From the IMG/VR virus record IMGVR_UViG_3300032311_000374, positions 1 to 41,166 of that record: a stretch of 41,166 bases of DNA, one strand, 5' to 3'. The translations under genes and the position numbers were made by a program. The notes below the pieces were generated by a model, which saw only the letters and a program-made list of their open reading frames with translations, was not told the origin of the DNA and searched no databases. This stretch comes from a virus. Shown one piece after another: positions 21,117-41,166 of this stretch (position 1 is its first letter; each line of letters starts with the position of its first letter).

Positions 21117-21163
21117 ATCTACTAAGATACTACATTTTTTACAATTTTCCAAATAAATTAGAC

Positions 21164-21191: not shown

Positions 21192-21213
21192 ATTTTTTAA
21201 ATAAATAAGTTTA

Positions 21214-24234: not shown

Positions 24235-24235
24235 T

Positions 24236-24784: not shown

Positions 24785-25460
24785 TTTTAGGTCTAATTAC
24801 ATGACATTTATGAAATGGATGTATATCATTTGTAATTAAATTATTTTTAAATAAATAATTTCCTAATGTAATATGTGGAATCCATTCATATTCGGTAAAT
24901 GGGTTTGGTAACCCATTAATAAATCTTCCCATTATTTTTTTACTACCACAAAAAAATAAATCATCTGCAACGTATACCATTCCATCTTCTGAAGTATTTG
25001 ATTTACGAATTCTTAATAATTCATTAGAATATAATGTATTTCTATCAAAATCCCAGTCATCTATATCGCTTAAAGATTCGCTCATAGTAAATCCTTTAGC
25101 TAAAATTTGAAACGATAAATCAGTTCTAATTAAACATATTAAATCATACTCTTTGTTAGAATCTTGTAATAATTTGAAACAATTTTTCCAATGAAATATC
25201 ATTTTATTAGAATTTTTAGTTTCGTTTGGAAATATATTTGATTCATCTAAAATTTCATAAACACAATTTGGTATATAATCCGTAATCATATTTGGAGTTA
25301 CTTTAAATTTTTTATACGAATCATCATTTTCATATTTTTGATTAGAAGTATTCCAAGTAGACATATAAAAATCATATTTTGTAAGATTTTGTACTTGTAA
25401 ATGAGTTGTTACAAAATCAAATTCTCTATACATACCTGTTATTAAAAATGCTATTTTCAT
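24777..25460 (-). CDS. Putative glycosyltransferase of the 'SGQxRT' family, divergent member 2
   Basis: The protein has 227 aa. It keeps the family plan in weakened form: KIAFLITGMYRE at 2-13 in place of KIAxCxSGQxRT, YDFYMSTWN at 29-37, LIRTDLSF at 110-117 and DDLFFCGS near residue 166. It has lost the GQ and the RT, so activity could differ. Its ATG overlaps the stop of the SGNH gene upstream (ATGA at 25457-25460), and its 3' end overlaps the convergent plus-strand cassette. It is the last gene of the long minus-strand run that begins beyond 41166. Confidence 0.6.
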   Translation of the reverse strand: MKIAFLITGMYREFDFVTTHLQVQNLTKYDFYMSTWNTSNQKYENDDSYKKFKVTPNMITDYIPNCVYEILDESNIFPNETKNSNKMIFHWKNCFKLLQDSNKEYDLICLIRTDLSFQILAKGFTMSESLSDIDDWDFDRNTLYSNELLRIRKSNTSEDGMVYVADDLFFCGSKKIMGRFINGLPNPFTEYEWIPHITLGNYLFKNNLITNDIHPFHKCHVIRPKIN

Positions 25461-26245
25461 AATGTATGGGATATGTGCTCATAAAATGAATTAGCAAATT
25501 GAATATGCCAATTTTCACCAGGATGTTCACAATCTCTCGCCAATGAATCATTTTTATAACAATTAATTGGTTCAAAAAATGTATTTGGATTTATAGTTGA
25601 ATTTAAATATAATTTTAATTCTTTAAATACATCGTAATAGTATCCAGCAATAGTGTGATAAACTTTTATATTATTAAGTTTTGCAATCGTTTCCACCAAT
25701 GTATATGCTTCCCAAAATATCATTAAATCCTGATAATCGTTTCTTAATTGAATAAATAAAGTATCTTCATCTTCATTTTTCCAAACAATATCAGTAGAAC
25801 GTGCTTGCCTAAATCCACCTACTTTTTTAAACGAACCATCTTCTTTTATATAATCTCTTCTACTAAATCCAGGCCACATTATAAATGTAATATCTGGAGA
25901 AAATTCAGATGAAACAAATTTATGAAAAGTTTTTGCTATAAATGAAGTGGATACCCCATAGTTTCCATAATTAAATAAAGTTCCTTTTCCAATTTTATTT
26001 ACTAATTGAGTTGGCCAAATGTTTTCATTTTTAACACCAATTCCCATAGTCCAAGAACAACCTAATGTTAATATATTGAAATCGGATTTATCTTTTAACG
26101 AATTAGAACGATACCCATGTTCATTCATACTATATATGATAGAACCATCATCAACTGTATCGGTAGCTAATGTTTTTAATTTTTTGTTTGTATATAATTT
26201 ATTTACAAATATATTATTGGATAATATTAAATCTACATCTTTCAT
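25457..26245 (-). CDS. SGNH-hydrolase-like protein 1
   Basis: The protein has 262 aa. LTLGCSWTMGIG at 59-70 is block I of SGNH hydrolases with nucleophile Ser64, where Cys replaces the usual Asp of GDS. GNYGVSTS near 95 suits block II, and FIMWPG near 121 the strand before block III. CEHPGENWH at 239-247 gives the catalytic His in block V. Such enzymes hydrolyse or transfer acyl groups, often O-acetyl on polysaccharides. No signal peptide is seen, so it would act in the cytoplasm or on virion glycan. Coupled at both ends by ATGA overlaps. Confidence 0.7.
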   Translation of the reverse strand: MKDVDLILSNNIFVNKLYTNKKLKTLATDTVDDGSIIYSMNEHGYRSNSLKDKSDFNILTLGCSWTMGIGVKNENIWPTQLVNKIGKGTLFNYGNYGVSTSFIAKTFHKFVSSEFSPDITFIMWPGFSRRDYIKEDGSFKKVGGFRQARSTDIVWKNEDEDTLFIQLRNDYQDLMIFWEAYTLVETIAKLNNIKVYHTIAGYYYDVFKELKLYLNSTINPNTFFEPINCYKNDSLARDCEHPGENWHIQFANSFYEHISHTL

Positions 26246-27660
26246 AATACTTTATATATGAAGTTGCTGAATTCCTTAATTAATTCTTCACCAAATATCT
26301 TTGTTTTATTATAGTTTAATAATGTTCTATGATTGTGTAATAATATTTCTTCCATAGACCAATACCATTCGTGTAATTCTTCTTTACTCATTTTACACAA
26401 CTTATTAATTTCTTTATTAATTAGTTGGATTCTAATAGAATTATCAGTTTCAGTATCATAGCTTTCATCTATAAATCCTTCAAATGTTTTAAATCCTAAT
26501 TCTTTTAATAATTTTAAAGCGCCTGGAAATGCTACAAATATAAATGGTTGAAAATTTATTAACGGCTTAAATACTTTTTCAGTTAAAGATTTACAATCGG
26601 TATGTATGAATGTTTCAAAGCATATTTCAAAATAGGAATCAATGTGTGGTTTAAATTCATTATCAGTCCAAGCATTAACTTTATCATACTCTGCATTTTT
26701 CTCACTTTTTAATAAATGAGGAGCGGTATCATACATATTTTTTACTTTACCTAAATGTAAATCTTCTAACTTATATCTTTCAAGTATATGCCCAACTTGT
26801 ATTGTATTATATCCATTTGGTGATAAAAATGACCAATCACCAAATTGTAGTAAATCATCGCTTACCATTTTATATAAAACTGCTAATCTATGTTCTCTCG
26901 CGTTTCTGATTTTCATTAGAAAATGATTATCTCGTATTGTATCTTTTGTATTATAGAAATCAGTTTCAGTCATACATACTCCGATTTTTCGTTGAATACA
27001 ATCGTTGTAATACCAAGAACTATGGTCTAAACAAAATGGTAAATTTCTAACTGCTAATTTTCTTTCATTTTCTGGAAAATAACTTTCATATAATTCTTTA
27101 GCATTAAAACTATTTATTCCCATTATAATACTACCATCTGGTATACCACTTCCATTTAAAGATGTATGTATATCTAAATATGTAGCTTTATCTACAAATG
27201 GCTCCATAGAGTAATCTATAAAAATTTTACATCTTTTATGTAAAATAGATTCCATTGCTTTTTTAGAAATAAATTTCCAAAAATGTTCTCCTTGCATTTT
27301 TTTAGAATGGCCTGGGTTTATTCCCGTAAATTCCCCTAATACTGCATTTGGTTTTATTGGATATATAAACCCATTTGAATTTCTTTGAGTAAAATATAAA
27401 GCATTTTCCGTATAATCTATCACATTACCATAAACTTGTGCTTGATAAAAATAACCTGTTGCTGAATTGGGCATACTGCCCAATTGTCCATCAAACATAT
27501 CACCTAATGAAATATATTGTTCAAAAGCAGTTGCATTTTGAGCTTTTAATGAATGCATTGATGCCATATAGTTTATAATTCCCAATTCAGTCATAGTTGC
27601 GTTTGGCAATATAAATGTTGGAAATATATAATCAAATGCAAAGTTAATTTTATGTTTCAT
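26242..27660 (-). CDS. Putative glycosyltransferase of the 'TEK[TV]' type
   Basis: The protein has 472 aa. The recognisable part is C-terminal: LTEKVFKPLINFQPFIFVAF at 359-378, PGALKLLKELGFKTF at 379-393 and FIDESYD at 396-402. This arrangement (TEKxFKP, QPF, then GFKTF...IDESYD) recurs in phage and bacterial proteins annotated as glycosyltransferases and resembles the acceptor/donor end of GT10/GT47-like folds. The N-terminal 250 residues show no clear domain, although ATG and overlaps are regular. It lies between SGNH genes, with an ATGA overlap to the next. The donor and acceptor are not readable. Confidence 0.65.
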   Translation of the reverse strand: MKHKINFAFDYIFPTFILPNATMTELGIINYMASMHSLKAQNATAFEQYISLGDMFDGQLGSMPNSATGYFYQAQVYGNVIDYTENALYFTQRNSNGFIYPIKPNAVLGEFTGINPGHSKKMQGEHFWKFISKKAMESILHKRCKIFIDYSMEPFVDKATYLDIHTSLNGSGIPDGSIIMGINSFNAKELYESYFPENERKLAVRNLPFCLDHSSWYYNDCIQRKIGVCMTETDFYNTKDTIRDNHFLMKIRNAREHRLAVLYKMVSDDLLQFGDWSFLSPNGYNTIQVGHILERYKLEDLHLGKVKNMYDTAPHLLKSEKNAEYDKVNAWTDNEFKPHIDSYFEICFETFIHTDCKSLTEKVFKPLINFQPFIFVAFPGALKLLKELGFKTFEGFIDESYDTETDNSIRIQLINKEINKLCKMSKEELHEWYWSMEEILLHNHRTLLNYNKTKIFGEELIKEFSNFIYKVL

Positions 27661-27661
27661 A

Positions 27662-28453
27662 TTAGAATGTTAAACTATGGTATACTTTATTGTATTTTTG
27701 GGCAAATTTAGAAACAAATGATTCGGCTTGTTGTTTCATATTATTTTTTACATAAATGGATTCGGCATATTCATATCTTCGTTTTGATATGGGTGTATCA
27801 AATTCCGGAAACTTTTCTTTCATGTAAGTATAATGTATTAATTGAGTTGGATGCGAATCGGTATATCCCTCATCTTCATAGTAATAAAAATCATCAGGAT
27901 ATTGAAAATTCCTATTTTGCCATGTCTGCATTGATTCCGAATCATCTAATAAATTTTCAAATTCTTTTTCCATTTTAATAGATAATCTATTATATAACGT
28001 ATCATCAAAATTTCCATTATTAAAGATTGCATTTACTCCTAATAGTAATTTATGCTTTATTCCTTTTAATGTTAAAATTTGTTTTATAGTATTAATTGCT
28101 ATCCAAGAATTATAAATTCCTTGGTCTTCTGTCCACATATTATTTACAAATTCTTTAAAATGCGCAGGATTATTAAATACACTTCCCGAACAATTCCATC
28201 CGTATTTATTAAAAAATGAAAATCTACTAAAAGATGTGAACATTACAACTATATAATCATCTTTTGAATTAAAATTATATCGTGTATCTGCTTCTATAAA
28301 TTTATTTAATACATAAGTGTTACAAGCCCCACCTCTTCCAAAATTATAAAATTCATTGAAATTTGCACCTAAATAATCAGCCCATGTACCGGTAATATGA
28401 CCGGTAAAAGAGCATCCAAACGTAAAGCATCTATTGTGAGTTGCACCAATCAT
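27662..28453 (-). CDS. SGNH-hydrolase-like protein 2
   Basis: The protein has 263 aa. FTFGCSFTGH at 10-19 is block I with Ser15 as nucleophile (GCS in place of GDS). YNFGRGGACNTYVL near 36-49 resembles block II with its Gly, and YTDSHPTQLIH near 210-220 supplies the Asp-x-x-His-like dyad. It has the same GCS[FW]T variant as 25457 and 30106, so these three are closer to each other than to 28431 and 29231. It overlaps the next gene upstream (28431) by 23 bases. Acyl esterase or transferase activity on a glycan is likely from family and context. Confidence 0.7.
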   Translation of the reverse strand: MIGATHNRCFTFGCSFTGHITGTWADYLGANFNEFYNFGRGGACNTYVLNKFIEADTRYNFNSKDDYIVVMFTSFSRFSFFNKYGWNCSGSVFNNPAHFKEFVNNMWTEDQGIYNSWIAINTIKQILTLKGIKHKLLLGVNAIFNNGNFDDTLYNRLSIKMEKEFENLLDDSESMQTWQNRNFQYPDDFYYYEDEGYTDSHPTQLIHYTYMKEKFPEFDTPISKRRYEYAESIYVKNNMKQQAESFVSKFAQKYNKVYHSLTF

Positions 28454-29231
28454 TTTGTTTAATTTTTTTTAATACAGTTTCATACACAACTCGTTGTCCC
28501 TCCGCCGATGTATGTAGTGTGTTTAAATCATCAGGATATTTTTCGGATAATGTATACCAATCTACATTTACTAAATTTTCTTTTGGAACATACATAGTAA
28601 ACTCACCATCGGATGTTAGTATTAAATGATTTATTCCTTTACTTTTTAATAAGTTATGAGCCATTACAGTCAATCCCATATCCGATTGTCTTTGTATTTG
28701 GTCATCAAATATTTCTGCGTAGAAATTTCTAAGCAATGTCATACGTTCTGCTCTTTCTTTTTTAAACTTAGCAAAATAATCACCGGCTCCTCTTTTTTGC
28801 GTTAATACATTATCAACATAATCAACTACTCCATAGTAATTTTCAGTAAACATCTGTCCTTTATATTGTGGGTCATCTTTCATAGGATTTTCTAAAAGAT
28901 ATGGATAAGTATCTTTTCCATATGGAGGATATTGGTGATAATTTACATTAGATAAGTGTATATGATTATGAACGGGTTCTACATTTTCAGGAAACCAATC
29001 AACTCTATTGTAAGATGTTACACCTATACAAAGTAAATCTATATCAGGGTTTTTTTCAATTGCATATTTTACTTGCAATAAAATAGATAAATTTGTACTT
29101 GAACCTTTTGAATAATTTACAATATCTTTACCCAATTCTTTTGATAATAACGAACCATATGGTTCATTTTTTAAATCATGACAACCAATCCCAATACTGA
29201 ATGAATCGCCACATATAACTACTTTACCCAT
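28431..29231 (-). CDS. SGNH-hydrolase-like protein 3
   Basis: The protein has 266 aa. VVICGDSFSIGIGC at 4-17 is a canonical GDS block I with Ser10 as nucleophile. NYSKGSSTNLS near 38-48 fits block II, CIGVTSYNRVDWF near 67-79 the central strand, and LHTSAEGQRVVYE near 241-253 the last block with a His. Unlike its two GCS neighbours it keeps the Asp. The TAATG junction at 29229-29233 couples it to the next SGNH gene. A role in esterifying or de-esterifying the phage-made glycan is inferred from family and clustering. Confidence 0.7.
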   Translation of the reverse strand: MGKVVICGDSFSIGIGCHDLKNEPYGSLLSKELGKDIVNYSKGSSTNLSILLQVKYAIEKNPDIDLLCIGVTSYNRVDWFPENVEPVHNHIHLSNVNYHQYPPYGKDTYPYLLENPMKDDPQYKGQMFTENYYGVVDYVDNVLTQKRGAGDYFAKFKKERAERMTLLRNFYAEIFDDQIQRQSDMGLTVMAHNLLKSKGINHLILTSDGEFTMYVPKENLVNVDWYTLSEKYPDDLNTLHTSAEGQRVVYETVLKKIKQNDWCNSQ

Positions 29232-30106
29232 TATAATAAATTATTTGTTTCTATGTAATTTTTAAGTTCTTTTGCCCAAACCATATGCGATTGTGGCGAA
29301 GGATGCCATCCATAATATACAGGCTCTACATTTGATTTTTCCATAAATCTTTTAAATGTATTATCGGGTTGGTCTTTTTTATAAAAACGAATTGGGTCAA
29401 CTGTATCCCATGCTGAAACGTACTCATTTTGATAAACGTGTCTACCTTTATGTGTAGATATTTGATGCGGCGAACCATGTAAATTTAATCCAATCAATTC
29501 ATTTCTAACATCTAAATCATTCCAATCTTGTGGATTTTTACCAGGTGTTTGATAGAATGAATTATAACACATCCATTTTATATTATGTGCATTACAAAAG
29601 TTTTGTAATTGTAATACATTCATTACATATCTCGGTAAATATTCTTCCGGATTCCATAAATATGTTACATAAAAATCCCAAAATTCTTTTTGTTGAGGCG
29701 CATCAAAGTGTTGTACTTGTGGCCATAATCTAAACTTAGAATTAATCTTATCATCTTTATACCAAAAATGATTTCTTTCGGGCGATGACCATCCGATTAT
29801 TACAAATAAATTATCAGTAGGGATTTTTTTAGCTAAATAATTTGAACTTATATATGTTATAGTTCTATTTACAATAGTACCATTATCATCGGCAGGCCAA
29901 GCTAAATTAGTAACTTCCGCATCCATTATTTTAGCTAAATGCGTTGTGAATATTTTTGGAATTCTATACTCATCGTTTTCTTCCATCCAATCATATTTGC
30001 CAGGATGAATTGTACCATCGTATCTTTTACTAATTTCTGGGTCAGCTATTTCTGAACCGAATACCCAAGAATCCCCATCACAAATTATTTTTAATTTTTT
30101 TTCCAT
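29231..30106 (-). CDS. SGNH-hydrolase-like protein 4
   Basis: The protein has 291 aa. IICDGDSWVFGSE at 8-20 is block I (GDSW, nucleophile Ser13). NLAWPADDNGTI near 68-79 occupies block II, VIIGWSSPERNHFW near 98-111 is a strand with a conserved Trp, and YYGWHPSPQSH at 264-274 carries the catalytic-His block. It is the longest of the five, with an aromatic insertion (residues 110-170) rich in Trp, Phe and Tyr, perhaps for binding sugar rings. TAATG junctions couple it at both ends. Confidence 0.7.
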   Translation of the reverse strand: MEKKLKIICDGDSWVFGSEIADPEISKRYDGTIHPGKYDWMEENDEYRIPKIFTTHLAKIMDAEVTNLAWPADDNGTIVNRTITYISSNYLAKKIPTDNLFVIIGWSSPERNHFWYKDDKINSKFRLWPQVQHFDAPQQKEFWDFYVTYLWNPEEYLPRYVMNVLQLQNFCNAHNIKWMCYNSFYQTPGKNPQDWNDLDVRNELIGLNLHGSPHQISTHKGRHVYQNEYVSAWDTVDPIRFYKKDQPDNTFKRFMEKSNVEPVYYGWHPSPQSHMVWAKELKNYIETNNLL

Positions 30107-30750
30107 TATATAATTTTAGTTAAAATTTTATACATAGTATCCGAAAAATCTCTATGTCCATTAAACGACCAATGCGCATCTTTAATTACACCATCAGTTT
30201 GCATTTGTATTGTTTCATATTTTGTATAATAATCCAATACATCCCATTGAACAGTTCGTTTTACACCTCTATATTTAAATAATTTTTGAAAAAAATCAAA
30301 TCGATTATTAATTCTTAAATCATTTGATTCGCCATCTATACACCACATTGTATATAAAATTGCTTCAACTTCTTTTTTAGTATAACCTTGATTTAATAAA
30401 GCTTCCGTAGATGCTGGAGTAATTGTTAAAAAACTTTTATCTCTATTCATATATGGTTCTAACTTATCACGTCGATATCCTATATCTATCCTATGTGTAA
30501 ATGTTTTTTGAATTATTACAATATCGCCTGAATCAATCATATCAAATGAGTTAATCATAGAATCTAAGATTTTATCATTTGAATATGCACCCATACCATA
30601 ATTGTATAATTTAAAACCAAGTTTTTTAGCTATAATTTCAGGCCAAATTAAATCATCTTCATTTTTATAATATTGAGTATAATATTCATTTACAGGTAAG
30701 CACCCATTTCCATGTGTAAAAGAACATCCGTATACAAATAAGTTATTCAT
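30106..30750 (-). CDS. SGNH-hydrolase-like protein 5
   Basis: The protein has 214 aa, the shortest of the five. LFVYGCSFTHGNGC at 4-17 is block I with Ser10 (GCS variant). YNYGMGAYSNDKIL near 53-66 fits block II and IVIIQKTFTHRID near 78-90 the strand before block III. DAHWSFNGH at 191-199 gives the C-terminal His. It overlaps the preceding putative glycosyltransferase gene by eight bases. Like the others it lacks a signal peptide. Confidence 0.7.
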   Translation of the reverse strand: MNNLFVYGCSFTHGNGCLPVNEYYTQYYKNEDDLIWPEIIAKKLGFKLYNYGMGAYSNDKILDSMINSFDMIDSGDIVIIQKTFTHRIDIGYRRDKLEPYMNRDKSFLTITPASTEALLNQGYTKKEVEAILYTMWCIDGESNDLRINNRFDFFQKLFKYRGVKRTVQWDVLDYYTKYETIQMQTDGVIKDAHWSFNGHRDFSDTMYKILTKII

Positions 30751-31996
30751 TGTTTAATATAAATTTTATTAGTTTTTCATTATTATATGGTTTAACCAAA
30801 TATTCCATAAATAAATTATAATTATTTTGCATCTTATCACTATATAATGATTTTAATTCTAATTGAGTTTTATCTAAATCGGAATTATTATTTTTATACA
30901 ATTCTAAAATATATTCTATACTTTTAAATATTGAATTTTTCATATTTTCTGAAGCCTCATCTATAAATTTAGTTTTTGAAAAATCAAAAAATTCTGAATT
31001 TAAAAACCAAAATCCCATTTCATGCAATTCTATAAAATTAAATGGATTCATATCCATAATAAATGGAATATCCATTTTAGAATATAAAATTGCTTTTAAT
31101 GTTTTTTCCGTAATATATTGTCTATTTAAACTTTGATATGGAAATATAAATTCTTCAAAATTTGTAGTTTCAAATCCAAATGCACATACGGATGTTATAT
31201 AATCTAAATAAGATGTAGTGTGACATTTACTATCCCAAACAGGTGTATGTAGGCAATTAAATTTTGTAAAAAAATCAGGTCTTTTTGATTCTTTATATAT
31301 TTCTAATAAATTAGTATCTACATTTTTATTTATAAATTCAGTTTGAATATTTTTATACATTTCATCTCTTGATACTTTATAATTTTTCTTTAAATACATT
31401 CCAATTAAATTTTGTTTTTTAACATCCAATTTATTGTATGGATAAAAATCAAAACCATATTGATAGTATGAATATATTAAATTTAAAAATGGCTCATAAT
31501 AAAAATTATTATTATTATAACTTATATTACTGCATGATATTACTTTTTTATCTTTTAGAAAATTTCTTAATGTATTATTTCTTGTATGAATAGCTTCACT
31601 TACATTTAAATAAATTACTTCTAAAATGTTTTTATCTATATTTGTAAAATCATTTTTTTCAACACCTTCTATAAATAACCTTCTAGCAAATAAAAATACT
31701 TTATCATACCCTTCTTGTTGAGTTTGTTCTTTTGCAAATTGTATGTATGCATTTATATCTTCATATGATTGTACTACAAATTTAAAATCAATTTCAGTAT
31801 TTTCAAATTTAAATTTATAAAATTTATCAATGTTTTCTAATGTTTGTGATTCTTGTTCATACCATCTTTGAATTGGTATTTGTGGCGTATCATTTGGATT
31901 TATTTCAGCAACCCCTCTTTCTACAATATACGGCATAAAATATGATAACATCATACCATCTATTAAACTATTTGCTATAAATAAAACTTTTTTCAT
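30743..31996 (-). CDS. Putative glycosyltransferase of the 'TEK[TV]' type, second copy
   Basis: The protein has 417 aa. YITEKTLKAILYSKMDIPFI at 294-313 followed by FNFIELHEMGFWFLNSEFFD is the same C-terminal plan as the gene at 26242 (TEKxxK, P-F, GF...), but with F-W-F-L in place of K-T-F. The N-terminal half begins KKVLFIANSLIDG, a Rossmann-like strand-loop, and includes a VFLFARRLFIEGV strand. Amino-acid composition is dominated by Lys, Asn, Ile, Phe and Tyr, in line with very AT-rich DNA. TAATG with the next gene upstream, and an eight-base overlap downstream, keep it in the run. The family is tentative. Confidence 0.6.
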   Translation of the reverse strand: MKKVLFIANSLIDGMMLSYFMPYIVERGVAEINPNDTPQIPIQRWYEQESQTLENIDKFYKFKFENTEIDFKFVVQSYEDINAYIQFAKEQTQQEGYDKVFLFARRLFIEGVEKNDFTNIDKNILEVIYLNVSEAIHTRNNTLRNFLKDKKVISCSNISYNNNNFYYEPFLNLIYSYYQYGFDFYPYNKLDVKKQNLIGMYLKKNYKVSRDEMYKNIQTEFINKNVDTNLLEIYKESKRPDFFTKFNCLHTPVWDSKCHTTSYLDYITSVCAFGFETTNFEEFIFPYQSLNRQYITEKTLKAILYSKMDIPFIMDMNPFNFIELHEMGFWFLNSEFFDFSKTKFIDEASENMKNSIFKSIEYILELYKNNNSDLDKTQLELKSLYSDKMQNNYNLFMEYLVKPYNNEKLIKFILNNE

Positions 31997-32913
31997 TATA
32001 TAAGTCTGTTTCCTTTCATCGCGGCTTCCTTTTTTCTAGCTTCCTCCATCCCATATCCATTATAATACCAATCGCTATGTAATTCTTGTATTTCTTTCCA
32101 ATCATTTATACTATGTAATCCCTTTTCTTCTGCTACCTTTCTAACAACATAATATGGATTAGCATGGTCTGCATATGGGTGAATATTCCAATTAGTAAGG
32201 TATTTATATAATAATGTACCCGGTCCATAATAATATTCTGGATTATCTACAAATTCTTTCTTTTGTTGTTGTGCCAATCCTTTATCCATTATATCTCTAT
32301 ACCAAAAATAAATATTTGATATTAAATCCATTGTAGGTGAATCTGCGTAATAAAATACATCATCAAAACAGCTTTGATTAAATTCAGTTGGAAATCTCGT
32401 TGGAGTTGGAGAAGATGCGTATGCTGTCAAAGGTCTTAAAACGTGTGGGTGTAGTTTAGAAATTGGTTCTCCGTATCTATTTATACCTTCTTGTGGAAAA
32501 TTTATATCTAATCTGCTTTTTACAACCATATCGTATGATATATTGTTTTCCAATTCATATTTTCGTTTTAAATTAACACTTCTCATAAAACTATAAAATA
32601 ATCCAGACCAAGCGTGTAAATGCTTTGATGCATCATATTTTTCGTATTCCATTGCGGCTGGTATAAATGTTAATTTAATATCTTCTTCTTCGGATGGATT
32701 TTCAATTTTATAATCTTTATTTTGCCATCTTGGTTCATTTTTATCTCTGTAACTATTCGTATCCCAAGTATGTATAAAATAATCTACACTAACTCTAATA
32801 TTTCTTTCAACACATATTTTTGTATTAAAAAAGTTTAAAATATTATCACTTGCGGTTTTCCAAGTTCTTGGTTGACCACTTAAACAAACTGCTATTTTAA
32901 ATAATTTATTCAT
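31996..32913 (-). CDS. Putative glycosyltransferase of the 'SGQxRT' family, member 3
   Basis: The protein has 305 aa. KIAVCLSGQPRTWK at 6-19, VDYFIHTWDTN at 43-53, VVKSRLDINF at 130-139 and DDVFYYADS at 184-192 are the family marks in full. It is the first of three tandem copies when read from the low-coordinate end; the pair with 32917 is closest (SGQPRTW, DYFIHTWD, F-Y-A-D-S shared). A C-terminal extension (Asp/Tyr-rich, ending KKEAAMKGNRLI) is unique. TAATG overlap with the glycosyltransferase at 30743. Confidence 0.65.
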   Translation of the reverse strand: MNKLFKIAVCLSGQPRTWKTASDNILNFFNTKICVERNIRVSVDYFIHTWDTNSYRDKNEPRWQNKDYKIENPSEEEDIKLTFIPAAMEYEKYDASKHLHAWSGLFYSFMRSVNLKRKYELENNISYDMVVKSRLDINFPQEGINRYGEPISKLHPHVLRPLTAYASSPTPTRFPTEFNQSCFDDVFYYADSPTMDLISNIYFWYRDIMDKGLAQQQKKEFVDNPEYYYGPGTLLYKYLTNWNIHPYADHANPYYVVRKVAEEKGLHSINDWKEIQELHSDWYYNGYGMEEARKKEAAMKGNRLI

Positions 32914-33702
32914 ATATTATCGTCTTACTTCTGGGTCTATTTTTACTTTGGATGTACCAATATGAAACATTCTTGCAAAATATACAAACATTTCTTCCAA
33001 TTTTACATCAGGTTTAAATATAAATGGGTCTAATTGTGGTAACCAATTATACATAGATGATATTATATCATATGTTTCTGAATCAGCGTAAAAGAAGATA
33101 TCACCAATTGCATCATAAGGCATTTCTTCAGTAGTATACCCATGACATGAAAAAATTGTTTTTGGTCTTGGTTTAGAAAATTCAAATGATAATATTCTTC
33201 TATTTAATTCATTGAAATACAAATCGGGTCGTAATCTAACACACATATCATATTTAAATTCATTATCCAATTCGTATTGTCGTTTTAAATGCCCAGCCAT
33301 CATTATACCATATAATTGACTTGATGCCCAGCTTAATGGGCACCATTGCACACTATTTGTTCTAAATTGAGTTCTAATATCTAAACTATCCTTTGTAGAT
33401 AAACTTTTAGCTTCACTTTCAATTAAAAATTCTTTTGGTTGAATTGTTTTAATATAATCGAGAATTTCATCGGATGTTTGATAATCGGCAGGTGGTGCTA
33501 TAAATCCATCCATACCCCATCTTTCTCTCGTCCATACTGAATATGGTTTGCTATTAAAATCCCAAGTATGAATAAAATAATCAACTTCAATATCTTCTTC
33601 TCTTAAATTTTCATTTCTTTTTAAATCCTTAAAAAGTAAATTCCAACTATCATAACATTGCCTCCAAGTTCTTGGTTGTCCACTTAAACAAACTGCTATT
33701 TT
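32860..33702 (-). repeat. 39-base near-identical repeat at the 5' ends of two tandem SGQ genes
   Basis: Bases 32860-32898 and 33664-33702 are the same over 39 positions except one (A/T at the 16th). They encode the shared KIAVCLSGQPRTW segment. Codon-for-codon identity over this length, in genes otherwise diverged, suggests recent duplication or gene conversion rather than protein-level constraint alone. The corresponding starts of 33702-34607 and 20388-21116 are visibly similar but less so. Confidence 0.8.
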
Positions 33703-33705
33703 CAT
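32917..33705 (-). CDS. Putative glycosyltransferase of the 'SGQxRT' family, member 4
   Basis: The protein has 262 aa. KIAVCLSGQPRTWR at 2-15, VDYFIHTWDFN at 41-51, CVRLRPDLYF at 155-164 and GDIFFYADSE at 201-210 match member 3 closely. A Trp/Cys-rich WCPLSWASSQLYG at 121-133 precedes a KRQYELDNEF also found in members 3 and 5 (KRKYELENN, KQQYELDNKF). The 5' end of the gene is nearly identical in DNA to that of member 3 over 39 bases. It overlaps the next member by an ATGA. Confidence 0.65.
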   Translation of the reverse strand: MKIAVCLSGQPRTWRQCYDSWNLLFKDLKRNENLREEDIEVDYFIHTWDFNSKPYSVWTRERWGMDGFIAPPADYQTSDEILDYIKTIQPKEFLIESEAKSLSTKDSLDIRTQFRTNSVQWCPLSWASSQLYGIMMAGHLKRQYELDNEFKYDMCVRLRPDLYFNELNRRILSFEFSKPRPKTIFSCHGYTTEEMPYDAIGDIFFYADSETYDIISSMYNWLPQLDPFIFKPDVKLEEMFVYFARMFHIGTSKVKIDPEVRR

Positions 33706-34607
33706 AATTGATTTTTTAAATCTTCTAAATAATATTTTGTATTAGTATTTAAAGATATTTCTTTTTGTTTTAATTTTTCATTAAAATCATCTATAAATAA
33801 TCTATTTAATGGATTACTACCATGACCTGAAAAATAATAGTTTTCTAATTCTTGCATTTTTTCAAATGTTTTAAAATCTATTGGTATAGTATAATCAATC
33901 TTATCTAAAAATTCATCTCTTAATAATAAAAATTTATCTATAAATTCTATACGATTTGTTTCTATGTTATTTTGTATTAAATAATGTGGTAAATTTATAT
34001 ATGAAATATTATTATCAAATTGCTTAGCCATTTCCCAAAAATAATTAGAAGCTATATCCATTTCTTTTGATTTTGAAATAAACACAACATCATATGATAA
34101 TCTATCTTTTGGGGTTTGGTGTAGCGTTGAATCATATCCATTTATATAAAATGTATTTTTTTTTATTTTTTGCAATTCATTTTTAATAGATACTTTATCA
34201 TTTAATAAAGTAAGTACGACATCATATCTTAGTTTTATAATACAATCGTATTCAAACTTATTATCTAATTCATATTGTTGCTTATATTGTATACTTTTTA
34301 AAAATGAATACCATAAAGGCTCTATACCCATATATTTACAAATACTATAACCATATGATATATCAGAATCTTCTACATACATTTTCTTTGGGGAATATAA
34401 TTTATAAATTTTTTCAAATTTACTATTTGATTCTTTGTATGGTTTTTTTCTGATATTGGATAAGTTATATGTTTTATATGAACAATCATCCCAACAATGC
34501 ATGAAGAAATCACAATCATTGTAAACCTCTCCTAAAAAATTTTTAATATTTATAAAATTTTCAACAGCGGTTCGAACTTGTCCACTTAAACATACTGCTA
34601 TTTTCAT
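33702..34607 (-). CDS. Putative glycosyltransferase of the 'SGQxRT' family, member 5
   Basis: The protein has 301 aa. KIAVCLSGQVRTAV at 2-15, CDFFMHCWDDC at 32-42, CIIKLRYDVVL at 122-132 and DVVFISKS near 167-174 show the family plan. In the second motif HTWD has become HCWD. The remainder is Lys/Asn/Ile-rich with a charged C-terminal helix. It is separated by one base from the LamG-like gene upstream. It is closer to member 1 at 20388 (both have KPYKES/PFKES and YSPKKMYVED/WHPKKMIIEN segments) than to members 3 and 4. Confidence 0.65.
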   Translation of the reverse strand: MKIAVCLSGQVRTAVENFINIKNFLGEVYNDCDFFMHCWDDCSYKTYNLSNIRKKPYKESNSKFEKIYKLYSPKKMYVEDSDISYGYSICKYMGIEPLWYSFLKSIQYKQQYELDNKFEYDCIIKLRYDVVLTLLNDKVSIKNELQKIKKNTFYINGYDSTLHQTPKDRLSYDVVFISKSKEMDIASNYFWEMAKQFDNNISYINLPHYLIQNNIETNRIEFIDKFLLLRDEFLDKIDYTIPIDFKTFEKMQELENYYFSGHGSNPLNRLFIDDFNEKLKQKEISLNTNTKYYLEDLKNQL

Positions 34608-34608
34608 A

Positions 34609-35367
34609 TTAGTAATGTGTTACATTATCTACATATAGTTGTGGAAAATTACCAGTAAATGCATAATTCCATATTTTATAACGACTCATTTTTTCAAAGT
34701 CACAAAAGAATGTAAATTCTTTGGTTAGTTCCCAATCTTTTTTTAAAATTAAATTATCTTCAAAAATGGGTTCGCAGTATTTTGTTTTATAATTTTCAGT
34801 TATATCCTCTATCTCATCGATATCTAATGCAGTTCTTACTGAAAATGCTAAATCGTATTCAAATTCACCATCTTGCTTTTCACCATCCAATAACATACTG
34901 CCACATCCAAACCAATATGGTGAGTTATCATATAAAGCAGGTAACTCATCTTCCTTATAAACGATTTCACCTATAATAGTACCATTATAATAACAAAATA
35001 TACTACGTTGTTCTTTACTATGGATTAATGCTAAATCCATATATGAATCAATATCATTATCTTCTATTTTATGATGTACTTGTCTAACATCTAATTTTGG
35101 AGTAGATGTACTATTATCCCAAATCCAATAAGAATATTGTATATAAGATGTAAATTGATAAACATCAGTTAAAGCGGATATACCAGAATGGGCACCACTT
35201 CTACTTATAATAAATTTATCAGTTTTAGTTAATTTATCAGGATTCAATTTTGCTCTAACAAATAAAGTAAAATCATTGGCCATTGAATCATCAGAATTAT
35301 TATCATCAAAATAACCATTTTTAGGATTCATCATAAAGATATTATCCTTATTTATTTTTAAACTCAT
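34609..35367 (-). CDS. Stand-alone LamG/concanavalin-like lectin-fold protein
   Basis: The protein has 252 aa. DFTLFVRAKLNPDKL at about 32-46, FIISRSGAHSGIS, YQFTSYIQYSYWIWD and SYMDLALIHSKEQRSIFCYYNGTIIGEIVY at about 107-136 give the strand order of a LamG/concanavalin-A-like jelly roll; YWFGCGSM and EFEYDLAFSVRTALDIDEI follow as in the LamG tail. It has no signal peptide. The same fold appears as an insertion in the two GT7 genes at 36782 and 38188, suggesting that the domain was copied within this cluster. The radical SAM gene overlaps its start by ATGA. Confidence 0.65.
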   Translation of the reverse strand: MSLKINKDNIFMMNPKNGYFDDNNSDDSMANDFTLFVRAKLNPDKLTKTDKFIISRSGAHSGISALTDVYQFTSYIQYSYWIWDNSTSTPKLDVRQVHHKIEDNDIDSYMDLALIHSKEQRSIFCYYNGTIIGEIVYKEDELPALYDNSPYWFGCGSMLLDGEKQDGEFEYDLAFSVRTALDIDEIEDITENYKTKYCEPIFEDNLILKKDWELTKEFTFFCDFEKMSRYKIWNYAFTGNFPQLYVDNVTHY

Positions 35368-36779
35368 AGTTTTATTGTTTTACAAAAATTATAAAATTCT
35401 TCTAATTCAGGAAATGTTTCAACGAAATTAGTACCTCTTCTCTTATCATGTTCTTCGAAATGTTTAGCAAAATTATATTGATTTTGCAATTTCATAGAGC
35501 CATCTTGTGGTGCTACCATCCAATCATAAATCCTTCTTACTTTTTGAACTTCTACATCAGCGTATCCAATATGCCTTGCATCAAAAGAGGGTGCTGATAG
35601 ATATGATACCAATTTGGCTTGGTCTAAAACGTAATGTGAAAAATCATATGGAAGAACTTGTACTGTTTGATGTGTTGGATATCTCAAATATGAAGAATCT
35701 AAGAACGTTGCTGAATTCCAATATCTATCCGTACTTGCATATGTTTGTTTTAATTTATAAACTTCATTTATAAATTTACCATAATTAAATACACTCAATG
35801 CATTATACGTTGCCATAAATGTTACAATAGTTCTTGATGATGATGCTAATATTTTATTAACATTATCCCAAAAACGATTGAATTCTAATCCCGTTCTAAT
35901 ATATTCAGCTTGCTTACCCCAAGTATCAGTTGATGTAAATATGATAATTTCTTCAACTCTACCCTCATCCTCTATTCTTTTAATTTTTTGAATCAATCTA
36001 TCTATTAATTCATCTGGAGCTCCTAAGTTAGAATTAATTGCTAATTTTAATTTTCTATTTGGATTCGGATGTTCAATAATATAATCTAATACTTTCCATG
36101 TATCTTTTGATAATAGGGGTTCTCCGCCTGTTATTCTAAAGGTATGTAATTCGTTATATAATTCAGGCCACCACTTCCAAAATGCTTCAGTATATGGATT
36201 ATATTCTGAATGCTTAATAGGCATTTTGTTTTCTCTAATCATCCATTGAATATCATTAAAATTATCAGTAGTTGGATATCCACCATTTTTTTCAATTTCT
36301 TCTACCCACTTAGAACTAAAGGATGGTCCGCAATACATACATTTAAAGTTACAAGCATTTGAGAATGCAACCTCAACGTATTTTGGATTATAATCAGCTC
36401 TCCAATCCGATTCAAATATTTCTTCTTTATATGGAAATGACCAGCTTTCTGCTGATTTAAATACTCTATCACTAAACCTATCTGAGTTATCTTCAACATT
36501 CCAACAATATTCACATTCCTCAGGTCTAGCACCCTGTAACATTTCTTTTCTACGAAGTTTTTTATACTTTGTATTATGTAATGCAGATGGATTTCTTGCT
36601 ATTTCAGTTTCAGAAATTTTATGTGTTGTTGGGTGGTGACAAGAATGGTTATGACCACTTTGTAATTGTAAAGTTACTTGTGTCCACTTTGCTAAACACA
36701 TTCCTTTACCAATTGAATCCAAATCCTTTTTCATACTAACGTAGAAAGGATTTTCTAAATTTATTTTTTTATCTGCCAT
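35364..36779 (-). CDS. Radical SAM enzyme, twitch/SPASM-like type
   Basis: The protein has 471 aa. The radical SAM cluster motif is C143-x3-C147-x2-C150 within FSNACNFKCMYCGPS. FRITGGEPLLS near 214-224 is the Gly-rich SAM-binding motif. N-terminal extra cysteines (C28, C47, and ECEYC at 89-92) could bind a second iron-sulfur cluster; here the usual C-terminal twitch cysteines are replaced by this N-terminal set. Phages often carry related twitch-domain proteins of unknown substrate. Lying between a LamG gene and two LamG-bearing galactosyltransferases, it may modify a sugar or a peptide in the glycosylation pathway. Substrate unknown. Confidence 0.85.
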   Translation of the reverse strand: MADKKINLENPFYVSMKKDLDSIGKGMCLAKWTQVTLQLQSGHNHSCHHPTTHKISETEIARNPSALHNTKYKKLRRKEMLQGARPEECEYCWNVEDNSDRFSDRVFKSAESWSFPYKEEIFESDWRADYNPKYVEVAFSNACNFKCMYCGPSFSSKWVEEIEKNGGYPTTDNFNDIQWMIRENKMPIKHSEYNPYTEAFWKWWPELYNELHTFRITGGEPLLSKDTWKVLDYIIEHPNPNRKLKLAINSNLGAPDELIDRLIQKIKRIEDEGRVEEIIIFTSTDTWGKQAEYIRTGLEFNRFWDNVNKILASSSRTIVTFMATYNALSVFNYGKFINEVYKLKQTYASTDRYWNSATFLDSSYLRYPTHQTVQVLPYDFSHYVLDQAKLVSYLSAPSFDARHIGYADVEVQKVRRIYDWMVAPQDGSMKLQNQYNFAKHFEEHDKRRGTNFVETFPELEEFYNFCKTIKL

Positions 36780-36781
36780 AA

Positions 36782-38188
36782 CTATGCTTTTACATTTATC
36801 ATTTTGTGTCTATTATATATAGTATCTACCGATAATAATTCATATTTCATTGAATTGATTCCATCGGATTTATAATCTATTTTTCCTTGCTGCATTTGTA
36901 GAATATATCGTTCTTCATTTTTTGCAGTTGTTTCACCCTTTGCCCATTTATCGATACCATCTACCTTAATTAAACCTTCAGTCTGATGTGGTAAGCATTT
37001 AAATCTACCATCACGTCTATACGGTAATATTGTATTTGGTATTTCTATTTTTTCTTTTTTTAATTTTATATTTGTTCGATTTCCAAAATCTAAATTCATA
37101 CTAAATAAATCTAATACTAAATTATCTTCGGGCATTTCTTTATGAAGATTTTTAATTTCAGTTTTAGATAAACACCTATCCCACATTTGTATTTGTGCAA
37201 TTCCACCTTTAAAATATGTTTCACCATTTCCTGCCGAATATCCTATTTGGAATGGCTCCATACCATATTTTTTTAATGGTTCTGTATATTGTAATGGCGA
37301 AGATGTTCCAGTCCCTAATCTGGCATCACTTTCTTTTCCATTTAAATAAAAATGAATAAACTTTTTTTCAGCATTTACAGCCAACGTTATCCAAGTCCAT
37401 TGATTTTCATATCTTTTAATCCATTGATATAAATGTGTTTTTATTCTATCCCATAGCATTACAGTATATGCTCTACTATTGTTGAATGATAATCCCCAAT
37501 CATATCCTGGCTTTCTAAATATGGGATACTCTACGAATTTACGTTCCGAATCTCCTATTAACCAAATTGGTATTTTTTCTATTTGCTGGTCTGCTTTTAC
37601 TAATATAGAAACTGTATGGGAGTTTGATATTGCGTTTCTTTGTTCTCTACTTGGAGTAAATTCAATTTTAGAATCTACGCCATTAAAATATGCTACATAT
37701 TCTTCTCCATCATAATCTAATTTAGTTTTTTCAGCATATCCTTCCATTACACATCTCCAAAACAAATCATCATCTTCCATTCCCCAATCCCAATAATCGT
37801 TTGAATATCCGTTAGTTCGTTCCACCTGTTCCTTTGAAAATAAAACTGCACCACCAAAGTATTCCTCATACTTCAATTGATAATCTGATTGTGAGATACG
37901 AACTGCAATGTGTTGGGGGTTATCATTTGGAAAGGAATAATCACAACTCTCATCTTCAGGAACCATATCAATATCATGCCAAACTATGTAATCACATCCA
38001 TCATCAAATGCGTGTTTAGCAGCAATGTTCTTCATTAAACCTCTATTAAAAAGTTTATCATCACATTGATGTGCTAAATAGATTGTATGTTCAATTCCTC
38101 TATCTTCTAAAAATTTTGTAACATGGGGAACAAATATATTCATATGTTCCTCTCTATTTCTATATGGTACGCATACTCCTAATTTCAT
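36782..38188 (-). CDS. GT7-type galactosyltransferase interrupted by a LamG-like domain, copy 1
   Basis: The protein has 468 aa. Residues 1-155 are the catalytic half of a beta-1,4-galactosyltransferase family (GT7) enzyme: VPYRNREEHM at 7-16, FNRGLMKNIAAKHA at 47-60, DYIVWHDIDMVP at 66-77 with the metal-binding DxD (72-74), EEYFGGAVLFS at 108-118 and NGYSNDYWDWGMEDDDLFWRC at about 126-146, shown here as separate parts of one block with EDDD at 138-141. Residues 165-355 are a LamG-like jelly roll (STVSIL..., WTWITLAVNAEKKFIHFYLNG, GGIAQIQMWDRCLSKTEI). Residues 388-468 resume the GT7 C-terminus (PYRRDGRFKCL, then DYKSDGINSMKYEL and the final MINVKA). The insertion lies between conserved catalytic blocks. 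Confidence 0.8.
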   Translation of the reverse strand: MKLGVCVPYRNREEHMNIFVPHVTKFLEDRGIEHTIYLAHQCDDKLFNRGLMKNIAAKHAFDDGCDYIVWHDIDMVPEDESCDYSFPNDNPQHIAVRISQSDYQLKYEEYFGGAVLFSKEQVERTNGYSNDYWDWGMEDDDLFWRCVMEGYAEKTKLDYDGEEYVAYFNGVDSKIEFTPSREQRNAISNSHTVSILVKADQQIEKIPIWLIGDSERKFVEYPIFRKPGYDWGLSFNNSRAYTVMLWDRIKTHLYQWIKRYENQWTWITLAVNAEKKFIHFYLNGKESDARLGTGTSSPLQYTEPLKKYGMEPFQIGYSAGNGETYFKGGIAQIQMWDRCLSKTEIKNLHKEMPEDNLVLDLFSMNLDFGNRTNIKLKKEKIEIPNTILPYRRDGRFKCLPHQTEGLIKVDGIDKWAKGETTAKNEERYILQMQQGKIDYKSDGINSMKYELLSVDTIYNRHKMINVKA

Positions 38189-39621
38189 TATATTGAAACA
38201 TTTACATGGGTTTGATTATTAATAGTTGTATTACTATGTTCTCTATATTTACAATCGGATAATCCATCTAATTTATAATTACGATATCCTTGCTCCATTT
38301 CATTATGAAATTTTAATTGATTGTATCGAGTGGTTACATCTTTCCACGAATTTCTAACATAGCCATTTTCATCATGTGATAACAGTAAAAATGTACAATC
38401 TCTTCTATATGGTATTTGTATAATTTTTGTTTCATCATATGATAGACCAACAATTTCACATTTAGATATTTTTCCATTATTTCCCTTACCTGATAAATCC
38501 ATAAGTTCATATCCTTTGATAAATTTCGCATCATAGTATAATTTTAAATTATCTGCCGATTGATATTCACCAAAATTTTGAGTAAGTCCAAAATATTTAT
38601 TTGTAGATATTTCTTTTATTTCTTTTTCAGAAAGTATACCATCATATATTGCAAATGAATTTATTAAACCTTTAAAGTATGTTTCATCCAATGTACTTAA
38701 TGTATCTATATTAGCACATCCTAAATAAAAATATTCTTCTCTATTATAATTGTATAAAGATGTTTCATAATATTCATATCCTATTAAATTTCCATCTTGA
38801 TACATTTGTATCAATTTTAATGTTGGGTCAATTGTAACTACTATATTTGTTTTATAATTTGGTTTTATATCCGAATTGATATAAATAATTTCAGAATCTC
38901 TGGTGAATATTTCAGTAGCATATCTTCTAAATCCATTGTAACTTATTCTAAAATCATAACCAGGTATAGAAAATATAGTAAATATATCATTCATTTTTTT
39001 ATGGTCACATATTAATTCATCTGGATAAAAAGATACAAATATACTAAACCTTTGAGTTATGTTTATAATGTTTTTAGCAGCTATATGTGCATCTATTCCA
39101 TTAAATTTTAAAGCCGCAGTATTACTTCCGTTTATAACTATTTCTTTAGAATCCAATGGTATATTAGCTAATTTACATCTATGTAATAAATCATCATCCT
39201 CATATCCCCATCCCCAATAATCGTTAGAATATCCATTGATAACTTCAAACATTTCTATGGGAAATAGTGTAACACCTCCAAAATATTCATCAAATACAAT
39301 TCTTTTAAAATTTGGGTCTTTTGATAAAAATTTAGAAGATAAATGAGTTGGTGTTTCTGAATATGAGTAATCCACATCAATTGGTATCATATCTACATCG
39401 TGAAATGCGACATAATCACAACCTAGCTTTTTAGCATACTTAAAGCCAATATTTAATAGTTTTCCTCTATTAAATAATTTGGCATCATCTTGTTCAATTA
39501 TTATCAATTCATATTGAATATTTTGTTTGTTCAAATATTCAACTATCTTTGATTTAAATTCAACTAAGTGTTCGTACCTATCTCTAAATGGAACTATTAC
39601 ACCAAGTTTATGCATTTGCAT
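38188..39621 (-). CDS. GT7-type galactosyltransferase interrupted by a LamG-like domain, copy 2
   Basis: The protein has 477 aa. The GT7 half comprises VPFRDRYEHL at 10-19, LFNRGKLLNIGFKYA at 49-63, FHDVDMIP at 73-80 with DxD at 75-77, EYFGGVTLFP at 112-121, and WGYEDDDL at 138-145. LKFNGIDAHIAAK at 171-183 opens the LamG-like part (to about 345), with IVVTIDPTLKLIQMYQDG and INSFAIYDGILSEKEI as its typical late strands. PYRRDCTFLLLSHD at about 397-410 and YKLDGLSDCKYREH resume GT7. The order matches copy 1, so the insertion predates their duplication. The end overlaps the next start by one base (TAATG). Confidence 0.8.
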   Translation of the reverse strand: MQMHKLGVIVPFRDRYEHLVEFKSKIVEYLNKQNIQYELIIIEQDDAKLFNRGKLLNIGFKYAKKLGCDYVAFHDVDMIPIDVDYSYSETPTHLSSKFLSKDPNFKRIVFDEYFGGVTLFPIEMFEVINGYSNDYWGWGYEDDDLLHRCKLANIPLDSKEIVINGSNTAALKFNGIDAHIAAKNIINITQRFSIFVSFYPDELICDHKKMNDIFTIFSIPGYDFRISYNGFRRYATEIFTRDSEIIYINSDIKPNYKTNIVVTIDPTLKLIQMYQDGNLIGYEYYETSLYNYNREEYFYLGCANIDTLSTLDETYFKGLINSFAIYDGILSEKEIKEISTNKYFGLTQNFGEYQSADNLKLYYDAKFIKGYELMDLSGKGNNGKISKCEIVGLSYDETKIIQIPYRRDCTFLLLSHDENGYVRNSWKDVTTRYNQLKFHNEMEQGYRNYKLDGLSDCKYREHSNTTINNQTHVNVSI

Positions 39622-39835
39622 CTATATCTGTTTCATTCTTTTTAACACTATTATGCCATTCAGCTAAATAATATTGAAGTCTATCACTCCATTCATCTTT
39701 ATTAATTTCTTCGAACCATACAGTTAAAGCATCCATTGTATTAGCAATTTTTTCTAAAGCTTTTACTTTACGCAATTCTAACATTAATTGTTCGTTTTGT
39801 TCGTTGTTTGACTCGGTTTTTTTAATTGTTGCCAT
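39608..39835 (-). CDS. 75-aa acidic helical protein, function unknown
   Basis: The protein has 75 aa, no Cys, and reads as two amphipathic helices (LMLELRKVKALEKIANTMDA, then LTVWFEEINKDEWSDRLQYYL). The Trp/Tyr-rich end could bind a partner protein. It overlaps the GT7 copy 2 start by 14 bases and lies after a 47-base gap from the GT2-like gene, so it probably belongs to the GT7 unit, perhaps as an accessory or regulator. No family is recognised. Small helical proteins of this kind are seen in marine phage glycan clusters. Confidence 0.6.
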   Translation of the reverse strand: MATIKKTESNNEQNEQLMLELRKVKALEKIANTMDALTVWFEEINKDEWSDRLQYYLAEWHNSVKKNETDIDANA

Positions 39836-39882: not shown

Positions 39883-40737
39883 TTATATTGATACTATTTT
39901 TTTAAATAATTTATTCCAATTTTTATAATTTTCAAAATTTGATGTAGGGCAATATTCAAACATATAATCCGTATCATTCACATCAATTTTAAATCTACAT
40001 TTTGATAATTGCCTGTACATTATTCTATATTCTTCTGAATAAGCGTAATCTTTTTGTATATTTGCTACATCTCTAATTCTTTGTCCAGCGGTACTATCCC
40101 ATTTAAAATGATGAACCTGAACCGAATATCTATCTATTGGTGCAATTAGTGGATGATTCCAACCTTGCCATCTCCAAGTAGTATGTCCTTCCAGTGTAGC
40201 ATAATGTTGTCCGGATGTTATTGGTATTGAACCTTTTACTAAACATATTTTATTTGGACAAGCTCCACTCATTGGATATCTAAAAAATCCAGCTAATGGA
40301 AATTGTTCAAATATGTTTACATCTTCTTTTAATTCTACAAATTCACCATCTTTACCAATTCTATCCACAAACCCGCCTCTAACAGCATCCCATCCGTTAG
40401 CTTCACAATCAGCTATAATTTCGTGCAATGGTTTTGAATATGAATGAAATTCATCATCATCGGATACAACCCACCAATCATTTGGATGAGTTAGTTTTGT
40501 TTCATTATATAGTTGTGTAACATATTCCCAATTAAATTTTTCTTTTATTTCTCTCCTAACTATTTTTGCATTAGAAAATTTAGAAACAATTTCTTGTACT
40601 GAATCATATGTACTAAATCCTTCCCATTCATATACTACCACATGAATTTCATCTACTAAATTAGTATAATGTTTCAACATATGAGAAAGTGTATTGGTAC
40701 GAGAACCTGTTACTGTAACTAATCTTAATTTATTCAT
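39883..40737 (-). CDS. Glycosyltransferase, GT2/GT92-like
   Basis: The protein has 284 aa. The GT-A plan is visible: LVTVTGSRTNTLSHML at 6-21, DEIHVVVYEWEGF at 29-41, then WWVVSDDDEFHSY at 88-100 with a DDD metal/nucleotide motif on the central strand. HPLIAPIDRYSVQVHHFKWD at about 200-220 supplies the late His residues often seen in the acceptor side of GT92-like enzymes, with Trp-rich HTTWRWQGWNHP before it. It probably transfers a sugar to a glycan. It follows the methyltransferase gene by a four-base gap. Donor unknown. Confidence 0.8.
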   Translation of the reverse strand: MNKLRLVTVTGSRTNTLSHMLKHYTNLVDEIHVVVYEWEGFSTYDSVQEIVSKFSNAKIVRREIKEKFNWEYVTQLYNETKLTHPNDWWVVSDDDEFHSYSKPLHEIIADCEANGWDAVRGGFVDRIGKDGEFVELKEDVNIFEQFPLAGFFRYPMSGACPNKICLVKGSIPITSGQHYATLEGHTTWRWQGWNHPLIAPIDRYSVQVHHFKWDSTAGQRIRDVANIQKDYAYSEEYRIMYRQLSKCRFKIDVNDTDYMFEYCPTSNFENYKNWNKLFKKIVSI

Positions 40738-40741: not shown

Positions 40742-41166
40742 TTACTTTCTTGTTAGTAGTGTTATTCCCGTTGTTGCAACTTTTTTATCAAACATACGAA
40801 AATTATTTAACTTTACCAAATTCCATTCCTGATTTTCTTCTAAATCTTTTATAAATTGTGCAGGCCCATCAAACGGAACAAAATCTTTTTTAGCATTTTC
40901 AGTTACTAAAAATGTATCGTGATATTTTTGGTCGGTATCATGTATGGTTATAATACCATTTTCAGACATAATAGTTGAATATAAATCAAAATCATTTTTA
41001 ACTCCATTATAAGAATGGTCTCCATCTATATGTAAGTAATCTATTTTTATATCTTGTCTTACAAAATAATCATAGAAAGCCCTTTCAGATGTTTCTAAAA
41101 TAACTTGAGGGTCAAAATGTTGTCTTAGAAAAGAATTCTCTTCTGTCCAATCGGTAAACCCACCAA
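40742..41166 (-). CDS. Class I SAM-dependent methyltransferase (partial, N-terminus beyond window)
   Basis: The frame stays open from the stop at 40742 to the window edge (about 141 codons), so the internal ATG at 40969 is not the start. Just upstream of that ATG the frame reads IDYLHIDGDHSYNGVKNDF and continues DLYSTIMSENG, IITIHDT. The IDGDHSYxGVxxDF and IIxIHDT pattern is typical of the Methyltransf_24 family, which O-methylates sugars and other small substrates. The N-terminal SAM-binding GxGxG block lies outside. It is the most upstream gene of the minus-strand glycan run that is visible here. A sugar O-methyl step is inferred. Confidence 0.85.
   Translation of the reverse strand, partial: GGFTDWTEENSFLRQHFDPQVILETSERAFYDYFVRQDIKIDYLHIDGDHSYNGVKNDFDLYSTIMSENGIITIHDTDQKYHDTFLVTENAKKDFVPFDGPAQFIKDLEENQEWNLVKLNNFRMFDKKVATTGITLLTRK

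Follow-up and report, generated by a model that had tools for sequence, protein, structure and literature searches.

Beta-1,4-galactosyltransferases of the GT7 family, such as B4GALT1, B4GALT7 and the short bacterial GT7s, have in common an N-terminal half with DxD and WGxEDDD motifs, a C-terminal strand bearing a His residue and a DGxxSxxY block. In the plain GT7s compared here no domain lies between EDDD and the His strand, and most homologues without a LamG, cellular and phage alike, have about 210-300 aa. Like the proteins described below, B4GALNT3/4 (LacdiNAc synthase), a eukaryotic Golgi enzyme, combines a glycosyltransferase with an extra all-beta carbohydrate-binding-like domain. However, that domain has a PA14 fold and is directly connected to the catalytic domain rather than located between its blocks; the activity of B4GALNT3 needs it (PMC11254600). 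The polypeptide GalNAc-transferases, POMGnT1 and MGAT4A are also GT-A enzymes whose lectin domains guide or modulate catalysis (PMC4432651, PMC9296478); that of MGAT4A modulates it (PMC9296478). Those lectin domains are N- or C-terminal, have other folds and belong to enzymes of other GT families. As for phage virion-type LamG/ConA-like proteins (PF13385), they belong to the same superfamily as the domain reported here and some are encoded in the same contigs, but they have the canonical strand order.

In this work, we describe two adjacent phage proteins, each of which is a GT7 enzyme (beta-1,4-galactosyltransferase type, GT-A) with one circularly permuted LamG domain inserted. They are encoded in the window, the whole stretch of 41,166 bases of an IMG/VR virus record that was analysed, in which sugar-related genes are abundant. 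The portal, large terminase and major head protein of the window match T4-type PHROG families, and the cultured phages with the portals closest to its own, at about 48% identity, are Microcystis phage Mel-JY01 and Flavobacterium phage immuto. The two genes and their parts are as follows.

36782..38188, minus strand: GT7-LamG copy 1 (P0001, 468 aa; from the ORF list, Pfam and AlphaFold2)
37721..38188, minus strand: copy 1, GT7 N-terminal catalytic half, residues 1-156, with DxD at 72-74, Y110, W135 and E138-D141
37019..37720, minus strand: copy 1, inserted LamG, about residues 157-390, with the invariant signature EYPxxRxxGxxxGxxxNNSR...KR...W at residues 220-264
37040..37126, minus strand: copy 1, displaced first jelly-roll strands (circular permutation), residues 355-383
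36782..37018, minus strand: copy 1, GT7 C-terminal block, residues 391-468, with RxGxFxCLPH (C398 and H401 at the metal-ligand positions) and DGINSMKY
38188..39621, minus strand: GT7-LamG copy 2 (P0002, 477 aa; from the ORF list and Pfam)
39142..39621, minus strand: copy 2, GT7 N-terminal catalytic half, residues 1-160
38407..39141, minus strand: copy 2, inserted LamG, about residues 161-405
38422..38562, minus strand: copy 2, permuted strand motif DNLKLYYDAK...MDLSGKGNNGKI
38188..38406, minus strand: copy 2, GT7 C-terminal block, residues 406-477

The order of domains in both copies is GT7 N half, LamG/ConA-like jelly roll and GT7 C-terminal block. The Pfam families GT7N and GT7C (PF13733 and PF02709) and Laminin_G_3 (PF13385, LamG/ConA-like) were all matched above their curated cut-offs, with 63.1, 68.8 and 43.5 bits, respectively, for copy 1 and 78.2, 59.5 and 33.6 bits for copy 2. 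The first 150 residues of the two proteins match B4GALT1 and B4GALT7 (best E values 5e-31 and 1e-32), and residues 425-456 of copy 1 give a weak second sequence match to the B4GALT-type DGxNSxxY block. The copies are 32% identical to each other over their full length (E=1e-63). The catalytic motifs listed in the preliminary description of this DNA are present, with DxD at 72-74 and 75-77 and WGxEDDD in the forms WDWGMEDDD and WGWGYEDDD, and so are the jelly-roll strings that it quoted for both copies, whose LSxxEI ends read LSKTEI and LSEKEI. Among its C-terminal motifs, PYRRD occurs in both proteins, but DGxxSxKY fits copy 1 only (DGINSMKY), because copy 2 reads DGLSDCKY. Its estimate of 190-230 residues for the insert was too low: the insert has about 235 residues in copy 1, and the medians of three paralogue groups, counted between the positions equivalent to P0001 residues 156 and 389, are 243-254.

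The AlphaFold2 prediction for copy 1, for which 75 homologues served as input, gave a confident single-piece model (pLDDT 91.8, pTM 0.86), and this pTM value argues for one well-defined domain arrangement. In PDB searches, the catalytic half resembles B4GALT7 and B4GALT1 over about 150 columns (1.2-2.3 A, 32-39% identity), indicating a GT-A fold, and the middle region of copy 1 matches the LamG folds of PAPP-A and pentraxin. We found no full-length match to copy 1 in the PDB or BFVD, where GT7 and LamG were matched separately; the best BFVD TM-score by query length was 0.35. The suggestion that the middle region might be part of a known GT7 variant is thus not borne out, as the matches in these libraries are split between plain GT7s and LamG/pentraxin-type proteins and none spans both. 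The C-terminal block, in turn, most probably belongs to the catalytic half, as proposed: it has its homologue in the C-terminal end of GT7s lacking a LamG, occupies the correct position and is part of the predicted arrangement.

Alignment with LamG-free GT7s locates the insertion point in one hairpin, between '...RCxxxGxxxxR' and 'RxGxFxxLxH'. The strand that follows the EDDD helix precedes the insert, and the strand with the C-terminal metal-ligand positions comes after it. LamG-free GT7s that align to both halves are found in Parachlamydiaceae, Simkania, Planctomycetota, Chitinophagaceae and Proteobacteria (mostly 220-310 aa), as well as in other phages (204-279 aa). The latter were recovered using an alignment of cellular GT7s as the query, whereas a single short Parachlamydiaceae GT7 yielded no match in viral contigs. 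An HMM of the phage C-terminal block also finds its counterpart in many LamG-free GT7s, at their C-terminal end and immediately behind the N half. Together with the alignment to plain GT7s, this rules out a terminal rather than internal position of the LamG. A terminal ricin-type lectin of the GalNAc-T kind is not present, the lectin-like part being the internal LamG. The catalytic domain is therefore interrupted by an insertion of about 235 residues, while those of the LamG-free GT7 members compared here are all continuous. Since the other GT7 features tested are found in copies 1 and 2, and since these proteins form a clade among plain GT7s, we consider them a GT7 variant.

The predicted active sites of copies 1 and 2 are intact. 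The columns of D72, D74, Y110, W135, E138, D139 and H401 are invariant in 160/160 copy-1 and copy-2 sequences, and C398 is kept in all 85 copy-1 sequences. E138-D141 are all unchanged in copy 1 and, apart from the D140 column, which differs in 10 of the 75 sequences, in copy 2 as well. H401 of copy 1 aligns with the B4GALT1 metal ligand His347 and C398 with Met344. At the position of B4GALT1 Tyr289, where Tyr favours Gal over GalNAc, all 160 sequences have Tyr. A galactosyl specificity is suggested by family membership and by this invariant Tyr. In the third paralogue present in some loci, several catalytic residues have been lost, H401 being kept in 13/27 sequences and D139 in 15/27; this paralogue is probably in part a pseudo-enzyme. 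Third copies, such as L035:4762-6240, often lack catalytic residues at the D139, D140, H401 or W135 positions, with the LamG still present.

The LamG insert does not follow the canonical strand order, in which LxxyxF...DlSGNGNnG precedes the FNG strand. In canonical LamG proteins of the same or related contigs (five ORFs, e.g. L098:1915-2622), a 'LivLlDs...YDLSGyGhNa'-type motif comes before the jelly-roll head. In GT7-LamG proteins, the strand motif comes after the head in 480/480 ORFs that have both matches, a total that includes duplicates, as do other ORF totals beyond the first 107 loci, because virus contigs overlap between scans. The motif also follows the head in 112 other ORFs, mainly stand-alone LamG proteins. 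From the displaced motif, the insert and the stand-alone protein of the window appear to have a circularly permuted LamG in common; judging from this motif and from the strands of the two models, the displaced part and the head would complete one jelly roll. The termini of a permuted LamG should be close, and the domain would therefore fit into a hairpin. In a set of 17 diverse copy-1 sequences, the LamG parts have a mean identity of 44%, and H191, E220, R225, N236, N237, S238, R239, K258, R259 and W264 never vary. These invariant polar residues, mostly specific to copy 1, look as would be expected of a binding face or interface. Median dN/dS values, which are rough because dS is near 0.9, are 0.05 for the N half, 0.18 for the LamG and 0.12 for the C block, indicating purifying selection throughout.

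The architecture is widespread, with carriers among uncultured T4-like phages numbering in the hundreds, and the preliminary description had called for a search for it in other phages. The order GT7 N half, LamG and C block was found in 244 ORFs of 107 environmental phage loci, and this identical order in so many ORFs and loci rules out a chance or assembly fusion. No complete ORF with a GT7 N half but without LamG was found in those 107 loci. The tandem pair is nearly universal among them, and a third copy is present in about a quarter. In a GT7 tree built without the LamG columns, 30 LamG-bearing rows form one clade relative to 38 plain GT7s (bootstrap 99, SH-aLRT 95), and separate trees of the GT and LamG parts yield identical copy groups; L063:6559 groups with copy 2 and not with the third copy. 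The single clade and the matching copy groups therefore indicate one insertion followed by duplication, and rule out an independent insertion in each copy. No relative was found in cultured phages of INPHARED at E 1e-5 for P0001 or 1e-2 for P0002. Outside phages, the carriers identified are two related bacterial MAGs (L113:409-1884 and L114:5941-7431), whose proteins are 78% identical; among 151 genomes searched of that bacterial phylum, only these two had a full-length match. The L114 contig has clear chromosomal genes. Genes for an SNF2 helicase and an LRR kinase flank its GT7-LamG gene on one side, and the opposite flank encodes GT2 enzymes, an HlyD-like protein and two ABC transporters. 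No T4-type terminase resembling that of the window was found in the two MAG genomes. An architecture strictly restricted to phages is ruled out by these two related MAGs and the chromosomal context of L114. The L114/L113 GT7-LamG looks as if it were shared between phages and a bacterial surface-glycan or export cluster.

In the phages, the GT7-LamG genes are part of a fixed cassette composed of a methyltransferase, a GT2-like enzyme, two or three GT7-LamG proteins, a twitch radical SAM protein and a stand-alone LamG. In the 107 loci, the methyltransferase is present in 100, the GT2-like enzyme in 104, the radical SAM protein in 102 and a LamG-only ORF in up to 85 (by BLAST or HMM), and the genes flanking the cassette differ from locus to locus. 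The other genes of the cassette region in the window are as follows.

34609..35367, minus strand: stand-alone permuted LamG protein (P0003, 252 aa), a distant relative of the insert
35364..36779, minus strand: twitch-domain radical SAM protein (NCBIfam NF033640, 339.7 bits for a cut-off of 170)
39608..39835, minus strand: small protein of 75 aa, conserved across many loci, whose ORF overlaps the beginning of copy 2
39883..40737, minus strand: GT2_4-like glycosyltransferase (weak Pfam match below the cut-off)
40742..41164, minus strand: Methyltransf_24 methyltransferase, truncated by the window edge

The stand-alone protein had been described as a copy of the inserted domain. It is indeed of LamG type, with a confident model (pLDDT 92.8, pTM 0.91) and a probability of 99.5% when its family profile is compared with that of the insert using hhalign. 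Nevertheless, it is no copy in sequence, as it has no Pfam match and only 12% identity to the insert, which rules out a recent origin from it. We read its Foldseek matches to clostridial neurotoxin binding domains as reflecting a common jelly-roll fold only, and not a specific relationship. The 75-aa protein has the core KALEKIANSxDALTxWFEEIxKxEWSxRxQYYLAEFH and no Pfam match; it may serve as a subunit, or else be a modified peptide.

Several variations were found in and around the cassette. At L014:4175-6919, copy 1 and the radical SAM protein form one 914-aa ORF, by natural fusion or loss of a stop codon, and L021 and L022 have five radical SAM paralogues in a row downstream of copy 1. Upstream of the cassette in L098 (1-5789) are genes for four consecutive canonical-type LamG proteins, probably virion adhesins and possible acceptors. 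Near the cassette in the window, positions 20388-34607 encode five MKIAVCLSGQxR-type and five SGNH-like YGCSFT-type proteins, families that are replaced in other loci by RmlC-like and split transketolase-type genes. Positions 16534-24784 hold a phage-encoded set of sugar and central-metabolism genes, including those for a shikimate dehydrogenase N domain (214 aa), a fusion of MannoseP_isomer and NTP transferase (635 aa), a GDP-mannose dehydratase type and a two-gene transketolase/E1-like pair.

How might these enzymes work? Most likely, the LamG binds or positions the acceptor; the role proposed in the preliminary description, that it could hold the growing glycan or select the acceptor, is plausible. 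Copies 1 and 2 would be working inverting transferases, with UDP-galactose as the probable donor. About nine residues separate the insertion point from the metal-ligand positions on the strand that follows it, and the LamG is therefore expected next to the active site, on its acceptor side, where it might serve as a built-in module for binding and positioning a glycan or glycoprotein. The two enzymes would add successive sugars in the cassette pathway, whose product probably decorates the virion, and the stand-alone LamG may recognise the same or a related acceptor. The intact catalytic columns, the polar invariants of the LamG, purifying selection, the fixed cassette and the precedents of lectin-type glycosyltransferases are all consistent with this scenario, as is the neighbourhood of the L114 bacterial member, with its GT2, ABC-transporter and HlyD-like genes. 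Conversely, conservation is lower in the LamG than in the catalytic half, and proteins, not sugars, are the ligands of many LamG domains. Taken as a whole, active GT7s with an acceptor-gripping LamG in a virion-decorating phage pathway are the explanation that we tentatively favour, with nearly even chances of being right.

Alternatively, the inserted and stand-alone LamGs might bind each other or a common partner, so that the two GT7s, the radical SAM protein and the GT2-like enzyme form one complex, with no need for carbohydrate binding. The same LamG type is found inside the GT7s, alone and, in L100, L101, L104, L107 and L108, as a LamG-like domain resembling the stand-alone one at the N-terminus of radical SAM proteins of 699-706 aa; the L014 fusion, the fixed gene order and the third copies that retain a LamG but often lack catalytic residues point the same way. 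On the other hand, the radical SAM fusions are limited to a few related loci and the L114 member has no other cassette genes nearby. We consider such docking rather unlikely. An assembly line for glycans, in which the permuted LamG has spread over the GT7s, the radical SAM protein and the stand-alone protein as a common acceptor tag and the degenerate copies are binding or scaffold subunits, seems similarly doubtful. Another possibility, which appears quite improbable, is a LamG devoid of binding function, either a lid with a structural or regulatory role or a passenger that is tolerated, which entered once at a permissive hairpin and was kept since its removal would unfold the enzyme. The insertion was single, the permutation should bring the termini close to each other and thereby ease a permissive insertion, and the LamG evolves faster than the catalytic half; nevertheless, its dN/dS is about 0.18, its polar residues are invariant in copy 1, and complete ORFs with a GT7 half are never without it in the 107 loci. 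Finally, the enzymes might transfer a sugar other than galactose, such as GalNAc or one made by the phage's own nucleotide-sugar genes. The GT7 family includes GalNAc transferases, and the window encodes a GDP-mannose dehydratase type and a nucleotidyltransferase with a mannose-phosphate-isomerase-type cupin, but the Tyr found in all copy-1 and copy-2 sequences at the B4GALT1 Tyr289 position speaks against it. We regard this, too, as quite improbable.

No report of a LamG-GT7 protein or of a permuted LamG was found in the literature searched, most subscription papers lying outside the search. With respect to that literature and the libraries searched, a LamG inserted within a GT-A catalytic domain is a new architecture. 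The circularly permuted LamG suggests how an insertion into a catalytic fold can be tolerated, and it opens the question of whether a lectin-like module inside such a fold can set acceptor choice. The cassette, present in many large aquatic phages with no cultured representative found in INPHARED, also hints that these phages make a glycan by a pathway not yet described, one that includes a radical SAM step.
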